Below, one piece after another: positions 788 to 64,000 of a DNA stretch of 64,000 nt; the first letter of the stretch is position 1; each line of letters begins with the position of its first letter. Location of the stretch: the IMG/VR virus record IMGVR_UViG_3300025012_000031, positions 62,001 through 126,000 of that record; one strand, written 5' to 3'. Under the pieces are notes generated by a model. The model worked only from the letters and a program-made list of their open reading frames with translations, did no database searches and was not told where the DNA came from. The DNA is from a virus. Position numbers and translations under genes: made by a program.

Positions 788-1459
788 TCATCCTTTTAAC
801 ATCCAAGATTTAAAATTGAATGATTTCTTTTCTTTTTCGATTTCTTTCAAGATATAGTCGTCATAGAAAGCGCGAGCATCTTGATTTGAATCGTTTGGTT
901 TATAACTGAAGTTCTTCCATGTACTCTCGGGAACTCGATGATAGACGGCGATCTTTCCTCCCGCGTATCTCCCGAGTGTTGGGTCCAATATCTTGTTGTC
1001 TTTTGTCAGGATGACGCCGTGTTCTAAGATATCAAACAAGAACGGTCTCGGACCTTCACCCGTCTTAGCCCAAGAAGCAGCATCACCTAACGAACCTTTA
1101 TTGATGATAATCACGTAAGCAAGATCACCGTACTTCGTGCCGTTCCTGTTAACGAAGTCAAGGGCATTATAATAACATCTCCCGACTTTACGACTACAAG
1201 CCTCAGCATCTTTCGGAAAGCTTTTAACACCAACAGAATCAACAAAATCGCCGGAGCGAATCTTATCAAAAATCCATGGTCCGGCGTTATGTGTTAATCG
1301 GAAGAATTCTTCCTTCATATAAGAAACATCATCAATCCCGGCTTCATCCGGAAAATCCCGCATCCATTTAGCGTGTAAAGCCTTTACATAATCTCTTGCA
1401 AGATCTTCAAGACCACCACCGCCAACAGACTCGGTTAGATATCGCTTAAATGATATCAC
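788..1459 (-). CDS. putative capsid-targeted internal head protein
   Basis: 223 aa with a GTG start that overlaps the upstream TGA (GTGA), so translation is probably coupled. The N-terminus MISFKRYLTE followed by SVGGGG fits a T4-type capsid-targeting sequence with a prohead-protease site (hydrophobic-x-Glu). Downstream, a Cys (GRCYYNAL, near residue 95), a His (EHGVIL, near 147) and an Asp (ILDPTLG, near 157) occur in the order Cys-His-Asp seen in papain/transglutaminase-type folds. A cysteine-hydrolase function is only a hypothesis. If packaged, the protein would enter the host with the DNA. Confidence 0.7.
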   Translation of the reverse strand: MISFKRYLTESVGGGGLEDLARDYVKALHAKWMRDFPDEAGIDDVSYMKEEFFRLTHNAGPWIFDKIRSGDFVDSVGVKSFPKDAEACSRKVGRCYYNALDFVNRNGTKYGDLAYVIIINKGSLGDAASWAKTGEGPRPFLFDILEHGVILTKDNKILDPTLGRYAGGKIAVYHRVPESTWKNFSYKPNDSNQDARAFYDDYILKEIEKEKKSFNFKSWMLKG

Positions 1460-1956: not shown

Positions 1957-2757
1957 TTATTCGTCGTCATCATAACGATCTTCGGTTGGTTCTTCATACA
2001 TCTCAGAATATACATTTGCTTCTGGTATTTTCTTCTCAATGCCCTTGACTATTCCATCGGCGGTCGACTTATGATCGTCTTTATGATAACATACTTTAAT
2101 TTTTAACGGGTCTTCATTTACAACATCAACGAATATGACGCCCTTTTGCACTAGTGATTCTGCTGGGATAGCACCGGTCTTTGCGGCACCACGATCCATG
2201 CCATCCCAATCTTCAAAATGTGGATGTTTTTCGAGGTATTCATCAATCGAAAGAATGTCACCCCTCCAATAGAATCCCTCAATGCTCTTCAACAAATCTT
2301 TCAATCTAAGTGCAATTGGTAATGCCCCGACGGTAGATGATATTTTAATATGTGGATGTTTACCTAAGTACGATCGCAGTAAAGTCAAATCATGCCACGT
2401 CAAGTGTTTGCCGATGATTTCTATTGCAAGCAAGTACTTACTCAGTGGTTTAACGGCCTTTGTATAAATTCGTTCTTCTGCTTCATGATCTTTATGTTTA
2501 TATCCTGAAGTAGGAACAATTTTGTATTTATGAGAAAGTTTATCACCATCAATTACGAAACGAATATCAGAATTCTCATCTTTACCCGTTACTATCCAAA
2601 ATCTCTTATCGCGAGAAAATGAAATCTGTTGAGCATGCGTCTTTAATTCATCATCAATCAATATCCTTCCAACATTTTCAGCCGGTGTAATATGATATAG
2701 AAGTCCAACTTGTTTGCCTTCTTTAAGAAAATCTCTAAATCTAATTAAAGATGACAT
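1957..2757 (-). CDS. capsid-targeted ADP-ribosyltransferase-like protein
   Basis: 266 aa. The N-terminus MSSLIRFRDFLKE|GKQ is a T4-type capsid-targeting sequence with a prohead-protease-like x-Glu site at residue 13. Then come LYHITP (residues 20-25), a long segment with SFSRDKRF (about 46-53), FVIDGDKLSHKYK (about 67-79) and HEAEERI (about 91-97). The His / Ser-Phe-Ser / Glu order matches the H-Y/S-E layout of ART-fold enzymes, where the Glu is catalytic. T4 Alt is a packaged, processed and injected ART, so this may be a functional analogue. The C-terminus is acidic. The ART assignment rests on motif order only; the targeting motif is clearer. Confidence 0.6.
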   Translation of the reverse strand: MSSLIRFRDFLKEGKQVGLLYHITPAENVGRILIDDELKTHAQQISFSRDKRFWIVTGKDENSDIRFVIDGDKLSHKYKIVPTSGYKHKDHEAEERIYTKAVKPLSKYLLAIEIIGKHLTWHDLTLLRSYLGKHPHIKISSTVGALPIALRLKDLLKSIEGFYWRGDILSIDEYLEKHPHFEDWDGMDRGAAKTGAIPAESLVQKGVIFVDVVNEDPLKIKVCYHKDDHKSTADGIVKGIEKKIPEANVYSEMYEEPTEDRYDDDE

Positions 2758-6941: not shown

Positions 6942-7352
6942 TTATTTGAAAACGTAAGGTGTTCTTTTTTCTTTAAGACCGACATTGTTCGCCGTTTTTA
7001 CAATTTCACCTTTTTTAATCTGGATGATGTTTTGGATTTCAACTTCATCGCCTTGTCCACGATAACCGTTTCCAGTATCGATGATGTATGTTTTCTTTTC
7101 GCCCACCTTACCGTATTCTCCACCCGAACCGATGATGAAAACCTCTTGCCACTTGACAGGATAACCAGAGCCGCGTAGACAAACCATGACCGTCTGATCG
7201 TATTCTTTATCCATCGCGAGAATTTCTTCAATGGTCGTTTTACTCTTCGGGAAATGATAACCCTTCATGATGTACCAATCAGCACGTCTGACTGGCTTAT
7301 ATCCACCGGGACCTTCAGAAATGATTCCTAAAACTTTATCGAAATTATTCAT
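6942..7352 (-). CDS. putative capsid-targeted internal head protein
   Basis: 136 aa. MNNFDKVLGIISE|GPGG is a clear copy of the NNFDK targeting tag with a hydrophobic-x-Glu site followed by a Gly/Pro linker. The rest is a compact beta-rich domain (KTYIIDTGNG, VEIQNIIQIKKGEIV) of no known family. GGGAGA lies before the ATG. It lies between tRNA genes, so it shares their transcription unit. Confidence 0.72.
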   Translation of the reverse strand: MNNFDKVLGIISEGPGGYKPVRRADWYIMKGYHFPKSKTTIEEILAMDKEYDQTVMVCLRGSGYPVKWQEVFIIGSGGEYGKVGEKKTYIIDTGNGYRGQGDEVEIQNIIQIKKGEIVKTANNVGLKEKRTPYVFK

Positions 7353-7459: not shown

Positions 7460-7795
7460 TTAATTTAATCTTGAATTGATATGAGTGACTGTCCCTAGTG
7501 TAGGATGTGTATACTCCGTGGTCCTATGATTGATTCGAGCAATCTCTTTTGTTCCGCGTGTTCCCTCCTTGAATCCTATCGTTTTCATAATATACGGGAC
7601 TTTATTGTCATCGCCGCCGGTGAATGTTCCAACAGTACGATCAGACGTGTCCAAGTATACACCGTGTCCTAATTTGAACTTAACAGGATCAAAAGAATCG
7701 CGCTTCAAATCTAATCCAACAAGATAATCCGACAGAGCCTTTTGTGTTGGCGCTGCTTCATTCAAAACTCTAACGATCTTATCAAAGTTATTCAT
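7460..7795 (-). CDS. putative capsid-targeted internal head protein
   Basis: 111 aa. MNNFDKIVRVLNE|AAPTQ: NNFDK tag and protease-type site. The mature part shows no known fold; it has a HGVYLDTSDRTVGTFTGG stretch near residues 45-62. AAGGAGATC precedes the ATG. Flanked by tRNA-Arg genes on both sides. Confidence 0.72.
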   Translation of the reverse strand: MNNFDKIVRVLNEAAPTQKALSDYLVGLDLKRDSFDPVKFKLGHGVYLDTSDRTVGTFTGGDDNKVPYIMKTIGFKEGTRGTKEIARINHRTTEYTHPTLGTVTHINSRLN

Positions 7796-15310: not shown

Positions 15311-15571
15311 TTATTCTTCCACGCTGTTAATCAATTCTTCAACATCTTTCATCCACACATCTTCACTTTGTTGTCCGAATGAGTTGACCGGAATCATCGT
15401 TGTTTTCATCAAGTCAACCATGTGCTTGACGTTCTCTGATGCTGTCTCTTTTGCATATAGATAGAAATATCCCTTTCCCTTTGTGAGAGCTAACCCAGGA
15501 TGTTTCTTTTCTAACTTCTTGTTGAATGAAATGAGTGATTCGGTTATGATAAATGTTTTGAATTTCTGCAA
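15311..15571 (-). CDS. putative capsid-targeted internal head protein
   Basis: 86 aa. MQKFKTFIITE|SLIS is a T4-type capsid-targeting sequence. The remainder is a small alpha/beta protein (KKHPGLALTKGKGYFYLYAKE is split over about 23-43). Part of the run of such genes from 15.3 to 18.4 kb. Confidence 0.65.
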   Translation of the reverse strand: MQKFKTFIITESLISFNKKLEKKHPGLALTKGKGYFYLYAKETASENVKHMVDLMKTTMIPVNSFGQQSEDVWMKDVEELINSVEE

Positions 15572-15583
15572 AGTATTTTCCTA

Positions 15584-15612
15584 TTGACAGGTCAATGAAT
15601 TCGTGTTATAAT
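15584..15612 (+). promoter_or_regulatory. rightward sigma70-like promoter
   Basis: Plus-strand TTGACA (15584-15589), 17-bp spacer, TATAAT (15607-15612), with TGT before the -10. It faces into minus-strand genes and would make RNA antisense to 15655-16032. No plausible plus-strand gene follows. Confidence 0.65.
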
Positions 15613-15654
15613 AGAACCATGTTCGCCGGAAAAAAGATAATATAGATGAGTCAA

Positions 15655-16032
15655 TTAGTCGAAGAAATTCGGCTTTTCTTTTTTGAGGTCGGCTGTAATT
15701 TTTGAAATGATTTCTGATCTTTCTTTATTCCAGCGAGCCGCGGCCCAGACATAGTGTATGAGACCTTTCTTAACGATCTCTAGAGTACCACCATTGATCT
15801 TCTTATCACCAGCATAGCCAACCCATCGTTTGACCGTCTTATCCTTGATCGGATTGAGATCAGCATCGACACCTTCGGCCTTCAGCTTCGTGCCACGAAA
15901 ATCAGCTACCCAGCAATTTCCATCTTTGATGAATTTGATCTTCTCAATTTCTCGCTTGAACATATTGTGAGCCATGTCACGATAGCGAGAGTCATTGTTG
16001 TCTTCAGCAAAATATTTCTTGAATCCTAGCAT
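15655..16032 (-). CDS. putative capsid-targeted internal head protein
   Basis: 125 aa. MLGFKKYFAE|DNNDS has the targeting tag, closest in form to T4 MKTYQEFIAE. The mature part is basic with a C-terminal helical region rich in Trp, Lys and Glu. It starts 2 bp after the stop reached by the shifted frame of the next gene. Confidence 0.68.
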   Translation of the reverse strand: MLGFKKYFAEDNNDSRYRDMAHNMFKREIEKIKFIKDGNCWVADFRGTKLKAEGVDADLNPIKDKTVKRWVGYAGDKKINGGTLEIVKKGLIHYVWAAARWNKERSEIISKITADLKKEKPNFFD

Positions 16033-16034
16033 AA

Positions 16035-16366
16035 TTAGACCACCTTAATCTCGATGACATAGAATTGCTTTTTCTGATTCTTGTCATCATGATATTTTCT
16101 TGATGTTGTCAAGTTGACACCGAAACGCTCAAAAAATATTTATTATAAACCCCGCCCTTAATCCAGTCATCAGCCAAATTTTCAAGTCGTTTTTTCTCGA
16201 AGAATGAGCAGGGGTACATAAGTTTTATCGTATCACCGCCAACAAGTTTCGCAAAACCATTGCCGCCACTCTCTGACATACCGAAGTCATCGCCCTGAAG
16301 TATTTTGAGTGCATCTTTAATACCGAAATTTTTATCTTCAGTAATCAATTCATAATGTCTTTTCAT
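16035..16366 (-). CDS. putative capsid-targeted protein, frameshift needed
   Basis: MKRHYELITE|DKNFG is a targeting tag. In the zero frame the protein is 85 aa and ends at 16109 (FLSVSVST). Around a T6 run (T TTT TTG, about 16132-16140) a -1 shift leads into another 33 codons (ERFGVNLTTSR...YVIEIKVV) ending at 16035, 2 bp before the next start. That extension looks like a natural C-terminus. Either programmed -1 frameshifting or a point indel would explain it. Confidence 0.6.
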
Positions 16367-16650
16367 AAATCATACTTTCTTCTACCGTTCTGTGGATGAA
16401 CAGTAGGGTCTGGTTTAATAGCTGACAGCGGTATAGTCTTCTTCCGTTCTTCGACATCAAAAACATCGCCGAATTTTCCACCAGCGGCTTTGGCCAACTC
16501 AATTACTTTTGCTTTTGCTGAACTACGAGAATTCGCCTCAATAGTACCATGTTGCTTTACCTTTTCGCCGTCAACATACCAATAGCTAAAAGTCTTTTCA
16601 GCTTTGCCTTCAGCAAGAACTGTTATAACCTTATCGAAGTTATTCAGCAC
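16363..16650 (-). CDS. putative capsid-targeted internal head protein
   Basis: 95 aa from GTG 16650 with GAGGAG 7 nt upstream. The N-terminus V/MLNNFDKVITVLAE|GKAE carries the NNFDK tag, which fixes this start over the longer frame. The mature part contains KQHGTIEANSRSSAKAKVIEL. Overlaps both neighbours by a few bases, as in a coupled operon. Confidence 0.7.
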   Translation of the reverse strand: MLNNFDKVITVLAEGKAEKTFSYWYVDGEKVKQHGTIEANSRSSAKAKVIELAKAAGGKFGDVFDVEERKKTIPLSAIKPDPTVHPQNGRRKYDL

Positions 16651-16921
16651 GCTCGATCTCCTCAAGGAAAGCGTCATAAGCAGCAATAGCAGTCTTCAGT
16701 TTCCCGACGGTTCTAACGCTATAGTTCTCGTCTGTGATTTTTGCCCAACCCATGAGCGGCTTTGACTTCAGTAGGTGACCGATGCCATACATGAAGTCGG
16801 TTGCCGTAGCGCTATCATCAAACTCTTTCACCTTTGCGACTTTCTCAATGTTCCATTCTTCGTTGATCGGTGCGGGTTTAGTTCCTTCGGACTCCTTTAT
16901 CAATTCATCATGTCTTTTCAT
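16640..16921 (-). CDS. putative capsid-targeted internal head protein
   Basis: 93 aa from ATG 16921 with AAGGAG 9 nt upstream. MKRHDELIKE|SEGTKP is nearly the same tag as in the gene at 16366 (MKRHYELITE). The body is helical and acidic. Overlaps the next gene by 11 bp. Confidence 0.68.
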   Translation of the reverse strand: MKRHDELIKESEGTKPAPINEEWNIEKVAKVKEFDDSATATDFMYGIGHLLKSKPLMGWAKITDENYSVRTVGKLKTAIAAYDAFLEEIERAE

Positions 16922-16934
16922 ATTCATATTCTCC

Positions 16935-18401
16935 TTAAGCGTAACGGTGGACGAGGTCTTGCCAACGAGCAACACCAGATTTTCTGATGCCGAGAGCGCC
17001 GAGGAATGTTCTCATATTGATCTGTTTATTATTGCCGCTTCCCTCTTTTTTGAGAAACTCAAGGACCTCAAGTTTCATCGCATGCTCAACATCTGGTTCG
17101 ATGTGGTCGAGAAGAGTCTCAATACGCTTGAAAATATCCTTGGCCGACAATGTAATGTCAATGGTGAAAGAACGGGAGAGGAGCGCCGGCTCCATCTTCG
17201 ACTGCGGAAGGTTCGAAATGAAGATAACCTGGCCGGAGAAGTCCACATAATTCGGGAGCTTTCCTTTCTTCGCCAAATCCAATTTTTCGTCCTCATCGAC
17301 ACCGTCAGGATCGTATGTATTCGCGTTGATCCAGGAGATACGGCGAATGGCCTTCGTGTCAAGAGCGGCCTTCAGAATGTTTCTTGCATCTGCATCCTTA
17401 AAGACGGAGTCACAGTCGTCGAATAGGATTAACTTGTTCGGACTCTTGACGAACCTAGCATACATACCGTATGCCGTAACGGAACCCGAGATGCTGAACC
17501 AATCCTCGTTTTCAACAAGACCGCTTTCTTTGATAACTTGTTCGATAACATATGTCTTACCGACACCCGCCATACCAGTGACGACCAGCGAGTTACGAAA
17601 CTTGCCAGTGACGAGCGTGGTGAGGTCTTCGAGGTCCTTGAATACAATATCTGGGTCGGCGGTTGGGGTTGCATCGAGTCTCTTCTGAGCAATATCGCCG
17701 ATATGAGAAACCTCGGGCTTACCGTGCTCACCGATAACCACAACGCCCCACTTTGCAAGGCTGATAGAATTATCAGTGGTGCGGTCAATAAGACCCTTCA
17801 GCGCCGGGTCTTTCGTTTTCATGTGCCGCCAACGGTTCGGAAGACCTTGCTTATAAACAGACTTGGTCGCAACTTTACCATTCACCGTCAATGTATATTC
17901 ACCGCTGCCGTCGGGGGCAAGGTCGATGTAACCGGTGTCTGGAAGTTCTGCTGCCGTTTCTTCAATAGGATCAACGAGATGCATCTTCAAAGATTCCTTT
18001 AGTTTGACGGGCCCGACCTTCGGGTCCTTAATTAGTTCAACAATCGCCCCAAGAACCTGGACAATGTTCTTATCTTTGAGGTCAACATGGATCGTCGGTT
18101 TGTCCCATTTTGCATTGACGTCCCAGATGTCAACGGAGTCAATTTGGTCCGACGTATTACCACGAAGCCAGTTGATTCTAAACTGCTTCTTTGCATCGTC
18201 CCCGACAAAATAACGGAGACCGTACTTCCTCTTTCCTTCGACAGAGAACTCATCAACAACACCGAATTGGTAAAGTGTTTTGTGAAGCTGCTTTTCGAGA
18301 ACTCTCTTAATGAGTTTAACGGCTCTCTCAAGTTTATCTCCAGAAAATTGGGCTTCGTTGATAATTTGCAAATAATTACTAAAGGAAAGAACTTGTCTCA
18401 T
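16935..18401 (-). CDS. capsid-targeted AAA-type ATPase
   Basis: 488 aa. The N-terminus MRQVLSFSNYLQIINE|AQFSG ends in a capsid-targeting-type site. Residues 20-250 are of unknown fold. The ATPase core follows: Walker A GMAGVGKTY (about 276-284), Walker B KLILFDDCDS (about 317-326), a sensor-type VIFISN (about 389-394) and a possible Arg finger in ALLSRSF (about 403-409). If packaged, this would be a large injected motor or remodelling protein. A TATAAATA motif within a hairpin precedes it. Confidence 0.75.
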   Translation of the reverse strand: MRQVLSFSNYLQIINEAQFSGDKLERAVKLIKRVLEKQLHKTLYQFGVVDEFSVEGKRKYGLRYFVGDDAKKQFRINWLRGNTSDQIDSVDIWDVNAKWDKPTIHVDLKDKNIVQVLGAIVELIKDPKVGPVKLKESLKMHLVDPIEETAAELPDTGYIDLAPDGSGEYTLTVNGKVATKSVYKQGLPNRWRHMKTKDPALKGLIDRTTDNSISLAKWGVVVIGEHGKPEVSHIGDIAQKRLDATPTADPDIVFKDLEDLTTLVTGKFRNSLVVTGMAGVGKTYVIEQVIKESGLVENEDWFSISGSVTAYGMYARFVKSPNKLILFDDCDSVFKDADARNILKAALDTKAIRRISWINANTYDPDGVDEDEKLDLAKKGKLPNYVDFSGQVIFISNLPQSKMEPALLSRSFTIDITLSAKDIFKRIETLLDHIEPDVEHAMKLEVLEFLKKEGSGNNKQINMRTFLGALGIRKSGVARWQDLVHRYA

Positions 18402-18410
18402 ATATGACCT

Positions 18411-18455
18411 CTCTGGTGCAGGAATTTTTAATTATTTATATTTCCTGATTCCAGA
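18411..18455 (-). promoter_or_regulatory. late promoter inside a hairpin
   Basis: TATAAATA on the minus strand (18433-18440), flanked by CTCTGG/CCAGAG and CAGGAA/TTCCTG arms, directly upstream of the AAA gene. Confidence 0.65.
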
Positions 18456-20693: not shown

Positions 20694-21968
20694 TTAAACC
20701 GCGAAGTTATTTACACCATCTCCGTGGTCAATTGAAAAAATTCTAAAGAAGTCACTATCACCGATATCAGTACCAGTATCTTGTGGATGACGGGTCATGA
20801 AGTAACGCGAAATCAACATAAAGTGTTCCTGGAATGTATCTGGATCAACCGCTGTTGCAATAAGATTAGAATAAGGCGAATAAATCAAACCACAATCGCC
20901 CGTGCAATCTTTCTCCCCCATATATCCAATTAGCACATAATGATCTGTGCTATAAAAATCGCACATTAGTGGCAACGTACCAACTTTACCGACATAATAG
21001 GGATTCTCTTCGTCTGGCTTTGTTTTTGTGTGGAGTGGGTTTGTGAGTAGCAGAGCGCATGTTGACGAATCGGCTAAAACAAACATCTTTCTTGGCTTGC
21101 GGATTGCTCTTACGATTTGTTCCGCAGCATTGTAAATGTTGGTATAGATATCACTAGCAACGGCCATGATGTCGCCCTGAATACCATATGAATTGAGTAG
21201 AACAACATCATTCATTGGTGTGGCAATATCACGAAGATAAGCAATCGTCTCAATATCAATTTCTTGCTTGATTTCGGTTGAAAGTGTTTTGCCTGCTAGT
21301 TCGGTTCCCTCTACACCAAAGTAAGCCATATAATCTTGAAGCTTTTCTTTAGTGAATTTACTTTTGATTTTGCGGGACTTAACTTCTTTCAAGATTGTGC
21401 GAACTTCAAATTCAACATTCTTAACGAGTGAATTGTCGTCAAGGAACGGACCAGAATAATTCTTAAACACCTTCTTGATCGATGTTCTGTTAACAGATGA
21501 ATAGGTAACAGTACGAACATCCGGGACTTCTACTGTTCCGATGTCGGTTGTGTTGGTGACCAAAATTTTCGGAACGGCATTATCAACGATATCGATTCTT
21601 ACAAGAAGGAATGTACCTTCTTTAAAGATGACCTCGGCAACAGCACCAGCCGCTGAAAATGTCAATGAATCGCCAACGGCAATACCAGTCGTATCATCGA
21701 GAGCAATGATTCTACTCGTCTCAAGATGAATACCATCTGATAAAGATTTATCACCGGTGTAAATTGAGTACAGCGCCGCAATTTTTGCAGACGGAGACTT
21801 TGTTGGCTGCACATCAGCGATCTGGGTGATGAGCATTTCATTATAAAGATGATTGAGGAGCGGATAGATAAGTGGTTCCCAAGGAGCCATCGCAGTAGAA
21901 CCGCTTGATTCTTTGAGAGAATTATCTTTAAGAGTCTCAACTATTAATTTGTGATTCTGATTTTCCAT
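20694..21968 (-). CDS. major capsid protein, T4 gp23-like
   Basis: 424 aa, close to the length of gp23-type HK97-fold capsid proteins. The N-terminus has a delta-like leader with x-Glu sites (KLIVE, NSLKE), expected to be removed by the prohead protease, followed by AMAPWEPLIYPLLNHLYNEM, here as residues 26-45. Middle QEIDIETIAYLRDIATPMND and late LMCDFYSTDHYVLIGYMG segments fit gp23 relatives. A GATAAATA late motif within a 9-bp hairpin lies upstream. Confidence 0.85.
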   Translation of the reverse strand: MENQNHKLIVETLKDNSLKESSGSTAMAPWEPLIYPLLNHLYNEMLITQIADVQPTKSPSAKIAALYSIYTGDKSLSDGIHLETSRIIALDDTTGIAVGDSLTFSAAGAVAEVIFKEGTFLLVRIDIVDNAVPKILVTNTTDIGTVEVPDVRTVTYSSVNRTSIKKVFKNYSGPFLDDNSLVKNVEFEVRTILKEVKSRKIKSKFTKEKLQDYMAYFGVEGTELAGKTLSTEIKQEIDIETIAYLRDIATPMNDVVLLNSYGIQGDIMAVASDIYTNIYNAAEQIVRAIRKPRKMFVLADSSTCALLLTNPLHTKTKPDEENPYYVGKVGTLPLMCDFYSTDHYVLIGYMGEKDCTGDCGLIYSPYSNLIATAVDPDTFQEHFMLISRYFMTRHPQDTGTDIGDSDFFRIFSIDHGDGVNNFAV

Positions 21969-27522: not shown

Positions 27523-27900
27523 TTAATCTTTACGACTGCCCGGCGGATAAACCTTTTTCGGATCAGCCGTCTTCATTTCCATTTTAATGTCTTTGTCTGC
27601 ATCAATGAAAGAAAGTAATTCTTTCTCCGTCTTAAAGTAAACTCGATTGGAGAAGTATGAAATTCCGTATGGCCCGCCCGGAGCATTACTAACGCTCACG
27701 TTGAATTGCTTTTTATCTTTTGTGTAGTAAAGAGCACCACCATGATTCTCGGCTGTACCCCACTTGTCTTTATCTTTATGCGAACCTCTGAAGCCGTACT
27801 TTGTTTTAGTAAGGAGTTTTGTTAACATTTCGCTAAAATCATCAGCGGTGAATTTACCAGCGGATTCTTTTATAAACTCGCTAAATTTTTTGATTGTCAT
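27523..27900 (-). CDS. putative capsid-targeted internal head protein
   Basis: 125 aa. MTIKKFSEFIKE|SAGKF is a T4-like capsid-targeting sequence. The mature part is basic and Lys/Tyr-rich. AAGGAG lies before the ATG; a TATAAATA motif between 8-bp arms lies 50 bp upstream, matching late expression. Confidence 0.7.
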   Translation of the reverse strand: MTIKKFSEFIKESAGKFTADDFSEMLTKLLTKTKYGFRGSHKDKDKWGTAENHGGALYYTKDKKQFNVSVSNAPGGPYGISYFSNRVYFKTEKELLSFIDADKDIKMEMKTADPKKVYPPGSRKD

Positions 27901-42105: not shown

Positions 42106-42922
42106 TTTCTAATTCCTTCCTTATTTTATTATTTCGTTTTGTCTCTGCTATTTTTCTTTTTGTTTCTTCTGTATGTTTTCTCCTAGGCCTATTTTTTAAT
42201 TTCATTCTTGTTTCTTCAGAAATTCCTGGCCTATTTTTTGCTGATTCTGATTGTTTTCTTTTTGTTTCTGGTGAAAATGTTTTTCCTATATTACTAATTC
42301 CAATTTTCTTTCGATGTTCCTCCGTTAAACAAATACCCTTTGTAGACTTCCCCACCTTTTTCCCAACTTCCTTAAATTTTTCTTTCATAACATCAGTCAT
42401 GAATCTACCCAACACCCACCCGTTTTTTATTAGATCATCGATTTCTGTTAAATGCGCCGGGCGAGATATGACTCCATTATTCAACCAAGATGTTCCTTTA
42501 TTCCCACCCGGATATGTATTTCTATCTCTATTTTTGTGAGACAGTTTTATTTTTTCTATATGATCATTTTTTAATTTGTCTGTACCATTTTTTTCTCTCG
42601 TTAATCTTTTCCTATTTTTACATTCGTCACTCTTTTGATATGTATTATATTGTTTTTTTAACCATTCATAATTTCTACTATTATATTTTTTGAAATTACT
42701 CATCATCACGGCTGCACAACATAAACTAGAATTTTTATATATCTTTGCTAATAATAAATGACACACGAAATGTTCTCTTAATGTTAAATATGCAAAATTA
42801 TCTTCTATATCTGAACCACCGATACATCGTGGTAAAATATGATGTCTTTCGTATTTTACTTCGGATTTTATTCTATTAACACTATTTGAAATTATCAGCT
42901 CGTAAATTTTTGTGTAATTCAT
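42068..42922 (-). CDS. HNH homing endonuclease with NUMOD3 repeats
   Basis: 284 aa from ATG 42922 (AGGAG 6 nt upstream). Core KYERHHILPRCIGGSD (about 24-39), then NFAYLTLREHFVCHLLLAKI (about 42-61): the HH...N...H pattern of the HNH family with AP2-less NUMOD3 tails (EEHRKKIGISNIGKTFSPET, TEETKRKIAETKR). TATAAATA (42946-42953) lies within a CTGTTTTA/TAAAACAG hairpin next to the ribosome site. Its end overlaps the radical SAM start by 38 bp. Confidence 0.82.
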   Translation of the reverse strand: MNYTKIYELIISNSVNRIKSEVKYERHHILPRCIGGSDIEDNFAYLTLREHFVCHLLLAKIYKNSSLCCAAVMMSNFKKYNSRNYEWLKKQYNTYQKSDECKNRKRLTREKNGTDKLKNDHIEKIKLSHKNRDRNTYPGGNKGTSWLNNGVISRPAHLTEIDDLIKNGWVLGRFMTDVMKEKFKEVGKKVGKSTKGICLTEEHRKKIGISNIGKTFSPETKRKQSESAKNRPGISEETRMKLKNRPRRKHTEETKRKIAETKRNNKIRKELENEQSGSEILGFI

Positions 42923-48982: not shown

Positions 48983-49639
48983 TTATGCAAACAATACACC
49001 CAGCTCTGCTTGTTTACCACCCTTGCTAACACGAACTTCATAGCGAAGGTTCGGAGAAAATTGACGATTGATCTTGTCCTTATAAGCGACAAATGCTTTG
49101 ATGTTGTCAACATCCGTGTCATCAAACTTACGCTTGTCTCGGCGAGAGATGATGCTTGGCATTGTACCAAACGTATCATAGTCCTTTTCGGCCATTTCAT
49201 CTGGATCACAGTCAGCAACTTTATAAACATCATCTTCTTTTATGACATAGAACTCTTCAAAATCGTTGAGATCATATTCACTGAACTTCCCACCCATTGT
49301 AAATGCAGGAGCGAAGAGTTTGTCACGAGCCGCATCTTTGAGAGATTCGAAGCTACGAGGATTATATTCATCATATTCCTTGTTACGAAACTTCTTTTTC
49401 AATTGTTTACGACGCGATTGGCCCTTCTCAAGAGCGACCTCTCCACCGCCGCTATTAGGATCATTTCCTATGACGACGTCTTCTGCCGCGGTATCATCAA
49501 GATCAAGTTTATTATACCACTTGAAAAATTCATCCCATGTAGTAAATCCGAACATCCCTTCAAATTCCTTAAGCGGTGGGACTGACACTTTCTTACCACG
49601 ACCTTCGGTGAGATAGACTTTAAAGCCCTTTATCTTCAT
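48983..49639 (-). CDS. putative capsid-targeted internal head protein
   Basis: 218 aa from ATG 49639 (AAGG upstream). MKIKGFKVYLTE|GRGKK is a strong targeting tag. The body holds FEGMFGFTTWDEFFKWYNKL (about 20-39), a Lys/Arg-rich block (KGQSRRKQLKKKFRNK) and acidic repeats, like other DNA-associated core proteins. It sits 4 bp after the ligase-like gene. Confidence 0.7.
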   Translation of the reverse strand: MKIKGFKVYLTEGRGKKVSVPPLKEFEGMFGFTTWDEFFKWYNKLDLDDTAAEDVVIGNDPNSGGGEVALEKGQSRRKQLKKKFRNKEYDEYNPRSFESLKDAARDKLFAPAFTMGGKFSEYDLNDFEEFYVIKEDDVYKVADCDPDEMAEKDYDTFGTMPSIISRRDKRKFDDTDVDNIKAFVAYKDKINRQFSPNLRYEVRVSKGGKQAELGVLFA

Positions 49640-63923: not shown

Positions 63924-64000
63924 ATGAAGAAACATCTTAACAATTATCTTATCGAGAATTCGATGTTCACCGATGCTGCAGGCAGAGCAAAGCTTGTACC
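63924..64000 (+). CDS. partial gene with capsid-targeting-type N-terminus
   Basis: The only clear plus-strand gene; 25 codons then the window ends. GGGAG lies 10 nt before the ATG. MKKHLNNYLIE|NSMF fits the capsid tag (hydrophobic-x-Glu). Likely a structural or core protein; identity cannot be read. Confidence 0.7.
   Translation, partial: MKKHLNNYLIENSMFTDAAGRAKLV

Follow-up and report, generated by a model that had tools for sequence, protein, structure and literature searches.

Gene organisation

The window, a stretch of 64,000 nucleotides of DNA from a T4-like phage, carries on its minus strand a complete gene for a 488-residue protein, putatively a head-targeted AAA+ ATPase proprotein. 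This gene and the other features discussed are listed in Table 1. The protein begins with a tag-like sequence (MRQVLSFSNYLQIINEA) that ends in a gp21-type site, INE/A, at residues 14–17, with the predicted cut at 16/17 (a slash marks the predicted cut throughout). A good ribosome-binding site lies 6 nt 5′ of the ATG at 18401. The next in-frame methionine is residue 140 and there is no ATG between the tag and that position, which makes initiation immediately behind the tag unlikely; judged from the sequence, the tag belongs to the protein, barring a non-ATG start that escaped notice. A preliminary description of this locus had proposed a packaged AAA-type ATPase with a capsid tag, to be doubted should translation start downstream of the tag. 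The open reading frame and the ribosome-binding site show that the gene is real and speak against the downstream start.

Table 1. Coordinates of features in the window and of related loci in Campylobacter phages
Feature	Position	Strand	Basis
Complete gene, 488-residue head-targeted AAA+ ATPase proprotein (putative)	16935..18401	-	ORF; phrog_1250; long-form relatives
RBS-like AGAGAGG upstream of ATG	18408..18414	-	sequence
Tag, residues 1–16 (MRQVLSFSNYLQIINE, then A), putative capsid targeting sequence ending in gp21-type site INE/A	18354..18401	-	motif statistics, position
N-domain, residues about 19–130 (to 135 in model), folded alpha-beta-alpha	18012..18347	-	AlphaFold2 pLDDT about 90; N-domain profile E = 3e-42
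Linker, residues 131–157; 137–156 predicted disordered	17931..18011	-	pLDDT < 50 at 137–156
Predicted second protease site LKE/S, residues 134–137 (cut 136/137)	17991..18002	-	second-site zone enrichment in long forms
Weaker alternative second site IEE/T, residues 146–149 (cut 148/149)	17955..17966	-	sequence; long-form alignment
Middle region, residues 158–249, variable among long forms	17655..17930	-	pLDDT about 58
NrdC.10-type AAA+ ATPase domain, residues 250–488	16938..17654	-	pLDDT about 97; phrog_1250; fold matches
Walker A GMAGVGKT (276–283)	17553..17576	-	G276, G279, K282 invariant
Walker B LILFDDCD (324–331)	17409..17432	-	D328, D329, D331 invariant
Sensor 1 strand VIFISN (392–397)	17211..17228	-	N397 invariant
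Putative arginine finger LLSRS (407–411)	17169..17183	-	R410 at least 90% conserved
Putative sensor 2 NMRT (462–465)	17007..17018	-	R464 invariant
gp23-type major capsid protein	20694..21968	-	Pfam Gp23 E = 1.6e-37; phrog_138
Tagged gene (MISFKRYLTES)	788..1459	-	tag motif
Tagged gene (MSSLIRFRDFLKEG)	1957..2757	-	tag motif
Tagged gene (MNNFDKVLGIISEG)	6942..7352	-	tag motif
Tagged gene (MNNFDKIVRVLNEA)	7460..7795	-	tag motif
Tagged gene (MQKFKTFIITES)	15311..15571	-	tag motif
Tagged gene (MLNNFDKVITVLAEG)	16363..16650	-	tag motif
Tagged gene directly downstream of ATPase gene (MNMKRHDELIKES)	16640..16927	-	tag motif
Tagged gene (MTIKKFSEFIKES)	27523..27900	-	tag motif
Tagged gene (MKIKGFKVYLTEG)	48983..49639	-	tag motif
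1427-residue protein, looser tag-like start (MKKHLNNYLIEN), PARP-type ADP-ribosyltransferase domain, runs past window	63924..64000	+	Pfam PARP E = 2.3e-8; PARP1 chains E about 1e-3
Campylobacter phage N-domain loci, annotated hypothetical, beside gp13	L175:3968-4570, L176:3992-4591, L177:3992-4591		tag + N-domain

The strict motif used here for tags and prohead protease sites, [LI]xE[AGS], follows the cleavage logic of T4. Strict tag-like starts occur in 20 of the 249 genes of this phage, against 7.8 expected. A gp23-type capsid gene is placed 2.3 kb upstream of the ATPase gene on the same strand, and the single strict site of its product is LKES at residues 18–21, shortly ahead of the Gp23 domain, whose Pfam match starts at residue 28. 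No S77 (gp21-type) protease was detected in the 155-kb fragment that makes up the record.

Small tagged genes stand in a row directly downstream of the ATPase gene (15311–16927, minus strand) and likely encode further head-targeted proteins. The 1427-residue protein with the PARP domain, also located as L010:924-5207, is possibly an ejected enzyme by analogy with T4 Alt, an ADP-ribosyltransferase ejected by T4 (PMC9026906). In the tagged 266-residue product of 1957–2757 the stretch YHITPAENVGRIL recalls motifs of ADP-ribosyltransferase type; this protein has no match in Pfam or NCBIfam. It also has a second strict site near its C-terminus (IPEA, 244 of 266), as does the tagged protein G000 42152-42907 (IAES, 227 of 251), and these sites parallel the reported C-terminal processing of T4 Alt.

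The ATPase domain and the NrdC.10 family

The phrog_1250 profile matches residues 254–484 with E = 6.7e-34 (profile positions 89–321 of 327). Walker A, Walker B, sensor 1, arginine finger and sensor 2 are all intact and, scored over 54 relatives, their key residues are invariant or nearly so. The clear Walker A/B core of the preliminary description is therefore upheld. Among solved folds the MoxR-type proteins NorQ and CbbQ rank first, closely followed by RuvB, the RFC clamp loaders and others. NorQ, CbbQ and RuvB match in the PDB with E of about 4e-6 to 1e-4, but the aligned identity is only 11–15% and numerous further AAA+ groups come close in score. A PDB sequence search with the profile returned P-loop noise only, e.g. 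kinesin and myosin, and the defence and NCBIfam libraries likewise gave P-loop matches only.

Relatives in phrog_1250, among them the T4-type nrdC.10, occur in 1228 phage records. NrdC.10 of T4 is a protein of 325 residues that carries no tag and whose gene is found among the early nrdC-region genes. A weak AAA match of NrdC.10 was noted in three T4-like phages in 2006 with no function given (PMC1524935). The window protein shares the AAA+ domain with this family, its Walker A, Walker B, sensor and arginine residues falling at corresponding positions. Unlike T4 NrdC.10 and the other short forms, which lack the tag, N-domain and linker site, it has about 150 extra N-terminal residues, and on sequence grounds it is a variant form of the NrdC.10/phrog_1250 family and not the T4-like short form.

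Long and short forms

A scan of viral contigs with the single sequence found no relatives. The family was opened by a two-row alignment with the 642-kb phage LR756502, which carries a long form, and alignment-based scans then gave 110 non-redundant complete relatives. With a long form defined as having at least 185 residues before Walker A, these divide into 36 long and 74 short, T4-like forms; a first part bearing the N-domain is common to the former and absent from the latter. Two sources, a 336-kb genome (L047) and a 63-kb contig (L015), each encode a long copy with the tag and, separately, a short one without it (328 and 321 residues, respectively); judged by length, a third genome does so too. 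The second copy in a 342-kb genome (L103) has 374 residues and a longer, untagged start, without the N-domain.

A tree of the AAA domains contains four changes of the long/short label, three of them forced by starred branches. A short clade of 12 rows is nested among long forms, pointing to a loss of the prodomain; eight of its 12 members have the strict motif in the AAA domain. On the tree the contrast in motifs between the two forms, described below, suggests a direction and is not proof; with three independent contrasts only, a pairwise test cannot reach significance.

Comparison of the gene neighbourhoods of 34 long-form and 30 short-form loci did not clearly separate the two: some long forms lie near tail tube and sheath genes, but some short forms too have capsid and sheath genes nearby. 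Neighbourhood was therefore dropped as evidence. A Peptidase_S77 (gp21-type) prohead protease scores above the cut-off in six of 12 long-form phage records and weakly in a seventh, LR756502. Some long-form relatives carry an intein in the Walker A loop. In L073-L075 it is contiguous; in L070:3602-6642 and L160:1796-6642 it seems to be divided between two ORFs that flank a homing-endonuclease-like ORF.

Domain architecture

AlphaFold2, supplied with an alignment of 54 sequences from the window and viral contigs, predicts two folded parts joined by a disordered linker and a middle region of uncertain structure (Table 1). The second site would thus lie at a protease-accessible place. A structure prediction for residues 20–250 had been proposed in the preliminary description, which took the first 250 residues to be unique to this protein. 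The prediction supports a folded domain as far as residue 130–135 and leaves the middle uncertain; uniqueness does not hold, for the N-domain, linker and variable middle constitute a layout shared by the 36 long forms. We consider this first part to be a conserved and probably removable prodomain.

A fold search of the PDB with the N-domain gave no match with E < 0.05 (best E = 0.05). Searched against viral structure models, it hits a further phage ATPase as well as a 199-residue protein of Campylobacter phage F379. The alignment of long forms displays the pattern RxNW...SIDxW...P in this domain, for which only Glu16 and Arg75 are counted as at least 90% conserved. Residues 166–196 of the middle region bear a weak resemblance to the β-hairpin start of short forms. 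The idea that the part following the second site represents a complete short form was set aside; the profile of short-form N-termini ranked the protein best of about 310, with an E of 0.08 that is not significant. Helix-turn-helix matches in some long forms, assigned by alignment to the middle region, hint at DNA.

Distribution of predicted protease sites

A tag was counted when the strict motif fell within the first 22 residues, and shuffled sequences of the 110 relatives served as the null. At 16 residues the N-terminal tag of the window protein lies within the 10–20 expected of a T4-type capsid-targeted protein, and a tag ending in a gp21-type site is conserved in the long forms. The strict motif is present in 22 of 36, where shuffles give 2.0, as opposed to three of 74 short forms, where shuffles give 1.4 (Fisher p = 7e-11), a contrast that supports the capsid tag assigned earlier; a looser motif raises the counts to 31/36 and 9/74. 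The N-domains of long forms (residues 31–110) are free of the strict motif, with 4.2 expected. The zone of the second site (residues 113–160) contains 26 motifs in 22 of the 36 proteins, against 5.7 expected, and the linker beyond it three, against 6.7. We note that LKES in the linker of the window protein is the same tetrapeptide as the sole strict site in the major capsid protein of this phage.

In the AAA domains of long forms the motif occurs four times against 19.9 expected, a five-fold depletion, and none of 300 shuffles was as low. Short forms, with 38 motifs against 34 expected, show no depletion in this domain (bootstrap P(long ≥ short) = 0). Control motifs related to the strict one gave a smaller long/short contrast or none. 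The window protein itself retains one strict site inside its AAA domain, IKE/S at residues 290–293 (292/293), which counts against the scheme proposed below. The remaining tagged proteins of this phage contain six motifs against 5.7 expected; as a group they show no avoidance, which was therefore rejected as a general mark of tagged genes here. The sequences themselves thus show the domain layout, the intact ATPase motifs, a tag and second site conserved in long forms only, the avoidance within the long-form ATPase domain and a prohead protease in several of the long-form phages.

N-domains in Campylobacter phages

The Campylobacter phages CP220, CPt10, F379 and IBB_35 each encode a protein of about 200 residues related to the N-domain. 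Those of CP220 (CPT_0117) and F379 (F379_022) were read; they start MRFLEYxRLKEAEEFS and carry the N-domain with a profile E of about 1e-8. They resemble the window protein in having a tag, here ending LKE/A, and the same N-domain, and differ in being stand-alone proteins without the ATPase. In CP220, F379 and IBB_35 (vB_CcoM-IBB_35, protein AEI88262.1) it is immediately followed by the gp13 neck gene or the equivalent of that gene. CPT_0117 is not named among 11 gel bands of CP220. The NrdC.10-type ATPase is absent from CP220 and F379, both scanned over the whole genome; the N-domain thus leads a life of its own in cultivated T4-like phages, and the ATPase form is a fusion. A tagged N-domain that exists apart from the ATPase may also be more than a disposable propeptide.

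Proposed role and alternatives

From these patterns we infer packaging, cleavage, ejection, ring formation and a cellular target for the ATPase. The proprotein would have four parts: a capsid targeting sequence of 16 residues that ends in a gp21-type site, a folded N-domain (about 115 residues), a disordered linker containing another such site and the NrdC.10-type AAA+ ATPase. The tag would bring the protein into the prohead core during assembly. Cuts by the prohead protease, one behind INE16 and one behind LKE136 (or IEE148), would then strip off the tag and the N-domain and leave in the DNA-filled head an ATPase of about 340–350 residues, close in size to free T4 NrdC.10. Ejected with the DNA, it may form a ring and remodel DNA–protein or host complexes as soon as infection starts. 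The packaged enzyme could act at once, the untagged NrdC.10 only after new synthesis. That an NrdC.10-type ATPase proprotein is packaged in the prohead seems to us probable; the complete scheme of packaging, two cuts, ejection and action on DNA–protein or host complexes as infection begins we favour with rather less assurance.

Does the enzyme work in the infected cell, or in the head that carries it? A protein processed in the prohead might act in head assembly, be it core or scaffold handling, maturation or DNA packaging, and not be needed after infection. The evidence of tag and sites applies equally to such a role, which also draws support from the tail sheath and tail tube genes beside the gene in some long-form phages and from the neck gene that follows the stand-alone N-domain gene in Campylobacter phages. 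We nevertheless judge it rather unlikely. The untagged short form is widespread and in T4 sits among early genes, two genomes retain both forms, and an ATPase trapped in a full head would presumably soon be short of ATP. The N-domain, on the other hand, could be the working component, in head or neck, with the ATPase a passenger freed by the second cut into the producing cell or the head. CP220, F379 and IBB_35, which encode the N-domain alone next to gp13, fit such an arrangement. In the other loci scanned, however, the N-domain is never without the ATPase except where inteins split the gene, and with two residues highly conserved it is as divergent as a propeptide, so that we regard this as very unlikely.

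It may also be asked whether the tag is a packaging signal at all. The long form could be a cytoplasmic ATPase that uses an N-terminal helix and the N-domain for localisation or oligomerisation, the LxE motifs being incidental; the lack of site avoidance in the tagged proteins as a group and the mixed gene neighbourhoods are compatible with this. Yet tag, N-domain and linker site occur together, the motif is missing inside the N-domain and is depleted only in long-form AAA domains, and the short forms of this ATPase, including those that share a genome with a long form, have neither tag nor N-domain, which makes a cytoplasmic protein unlikely.

Returning to the packaged and ejected ATPase, it would probably reach the bacterium along with the viral DNA and not have to be synthesised there first, and this for a member of a widespread T4-like gene family, NrdC.10, without known role. 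A substrate would then probably be present at time zero, narrowing the search to incoming DNA, the host nucleoid, RNA polymerase and first-response defences. Counter-defence is a fair guess by analogy, because T4 internal proteins and products of neighbouring nrdC genes, namely IPI, IPIII and NrdC.5, act against host defences (PMC9391042). More tentatively, and with some doubt on our part, tag and N-domain might together form a transferable module dedicated to head delivery, a folded prodomain flanked by two protease sites, which turned a phage AAA+ ATPase that is normally newly made into a first-strike injected enzyme, some phages keeping this enzyme in two copies, one packaged and one newly made. 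The combination of tag, second site and cargo avoidance suggests a cheap predictor of packaged proteins in uncultured phages, although avoidance failed for the other tagged genes of this phage.

Comparison with known systems

What stands of the earlier interpretation is the capsid-type tag, the AAA+ core and several independent signs in the sequences that the long form is exposed to a prohead protease; an ATPase of this type is not new in T4-like phages, given the NrdC.10 that T4 makes untagged. The combination of tag, folded prodomain, second site and NrdC.10-type ATPase was not found reported in the literature. Its elements have precedents. Of the internal head proteins of T4, those that carry a capsid targeting sequence (IPI–III and Alt) likewise begin with a short tag that ends at a glutamate where the prohead protease cuts, in a phage with the same type of capsid protein. 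The window protein differs from them in that its putative cargo is an AAA+ ATPase and in having a folded domain and a second site between tag and cargo. A similar layout is seen in the giant-phage head proteins gp50, gp53 and gp54 of SPN3US, which have propeptides of 124–130 residues with several sites (PMC5694885). As in the window protein, the propeptide is N-terminal, some 125–150 residues long over both systems, with sites close to its beginning and at its end, though the protease motif differs in detail. DarB of P1 carries an N-terminal head signal, and an AAA-family ATPase has been reported among the virion proteins of Staphylococcus jumbo phage DC4 (PMC10638138). Together the T4 capsid targeting sequences, the SPN3US propeptides, the P1 DarB signal and the DC4 virion ATPase make each step of the proposed scheme plausible.
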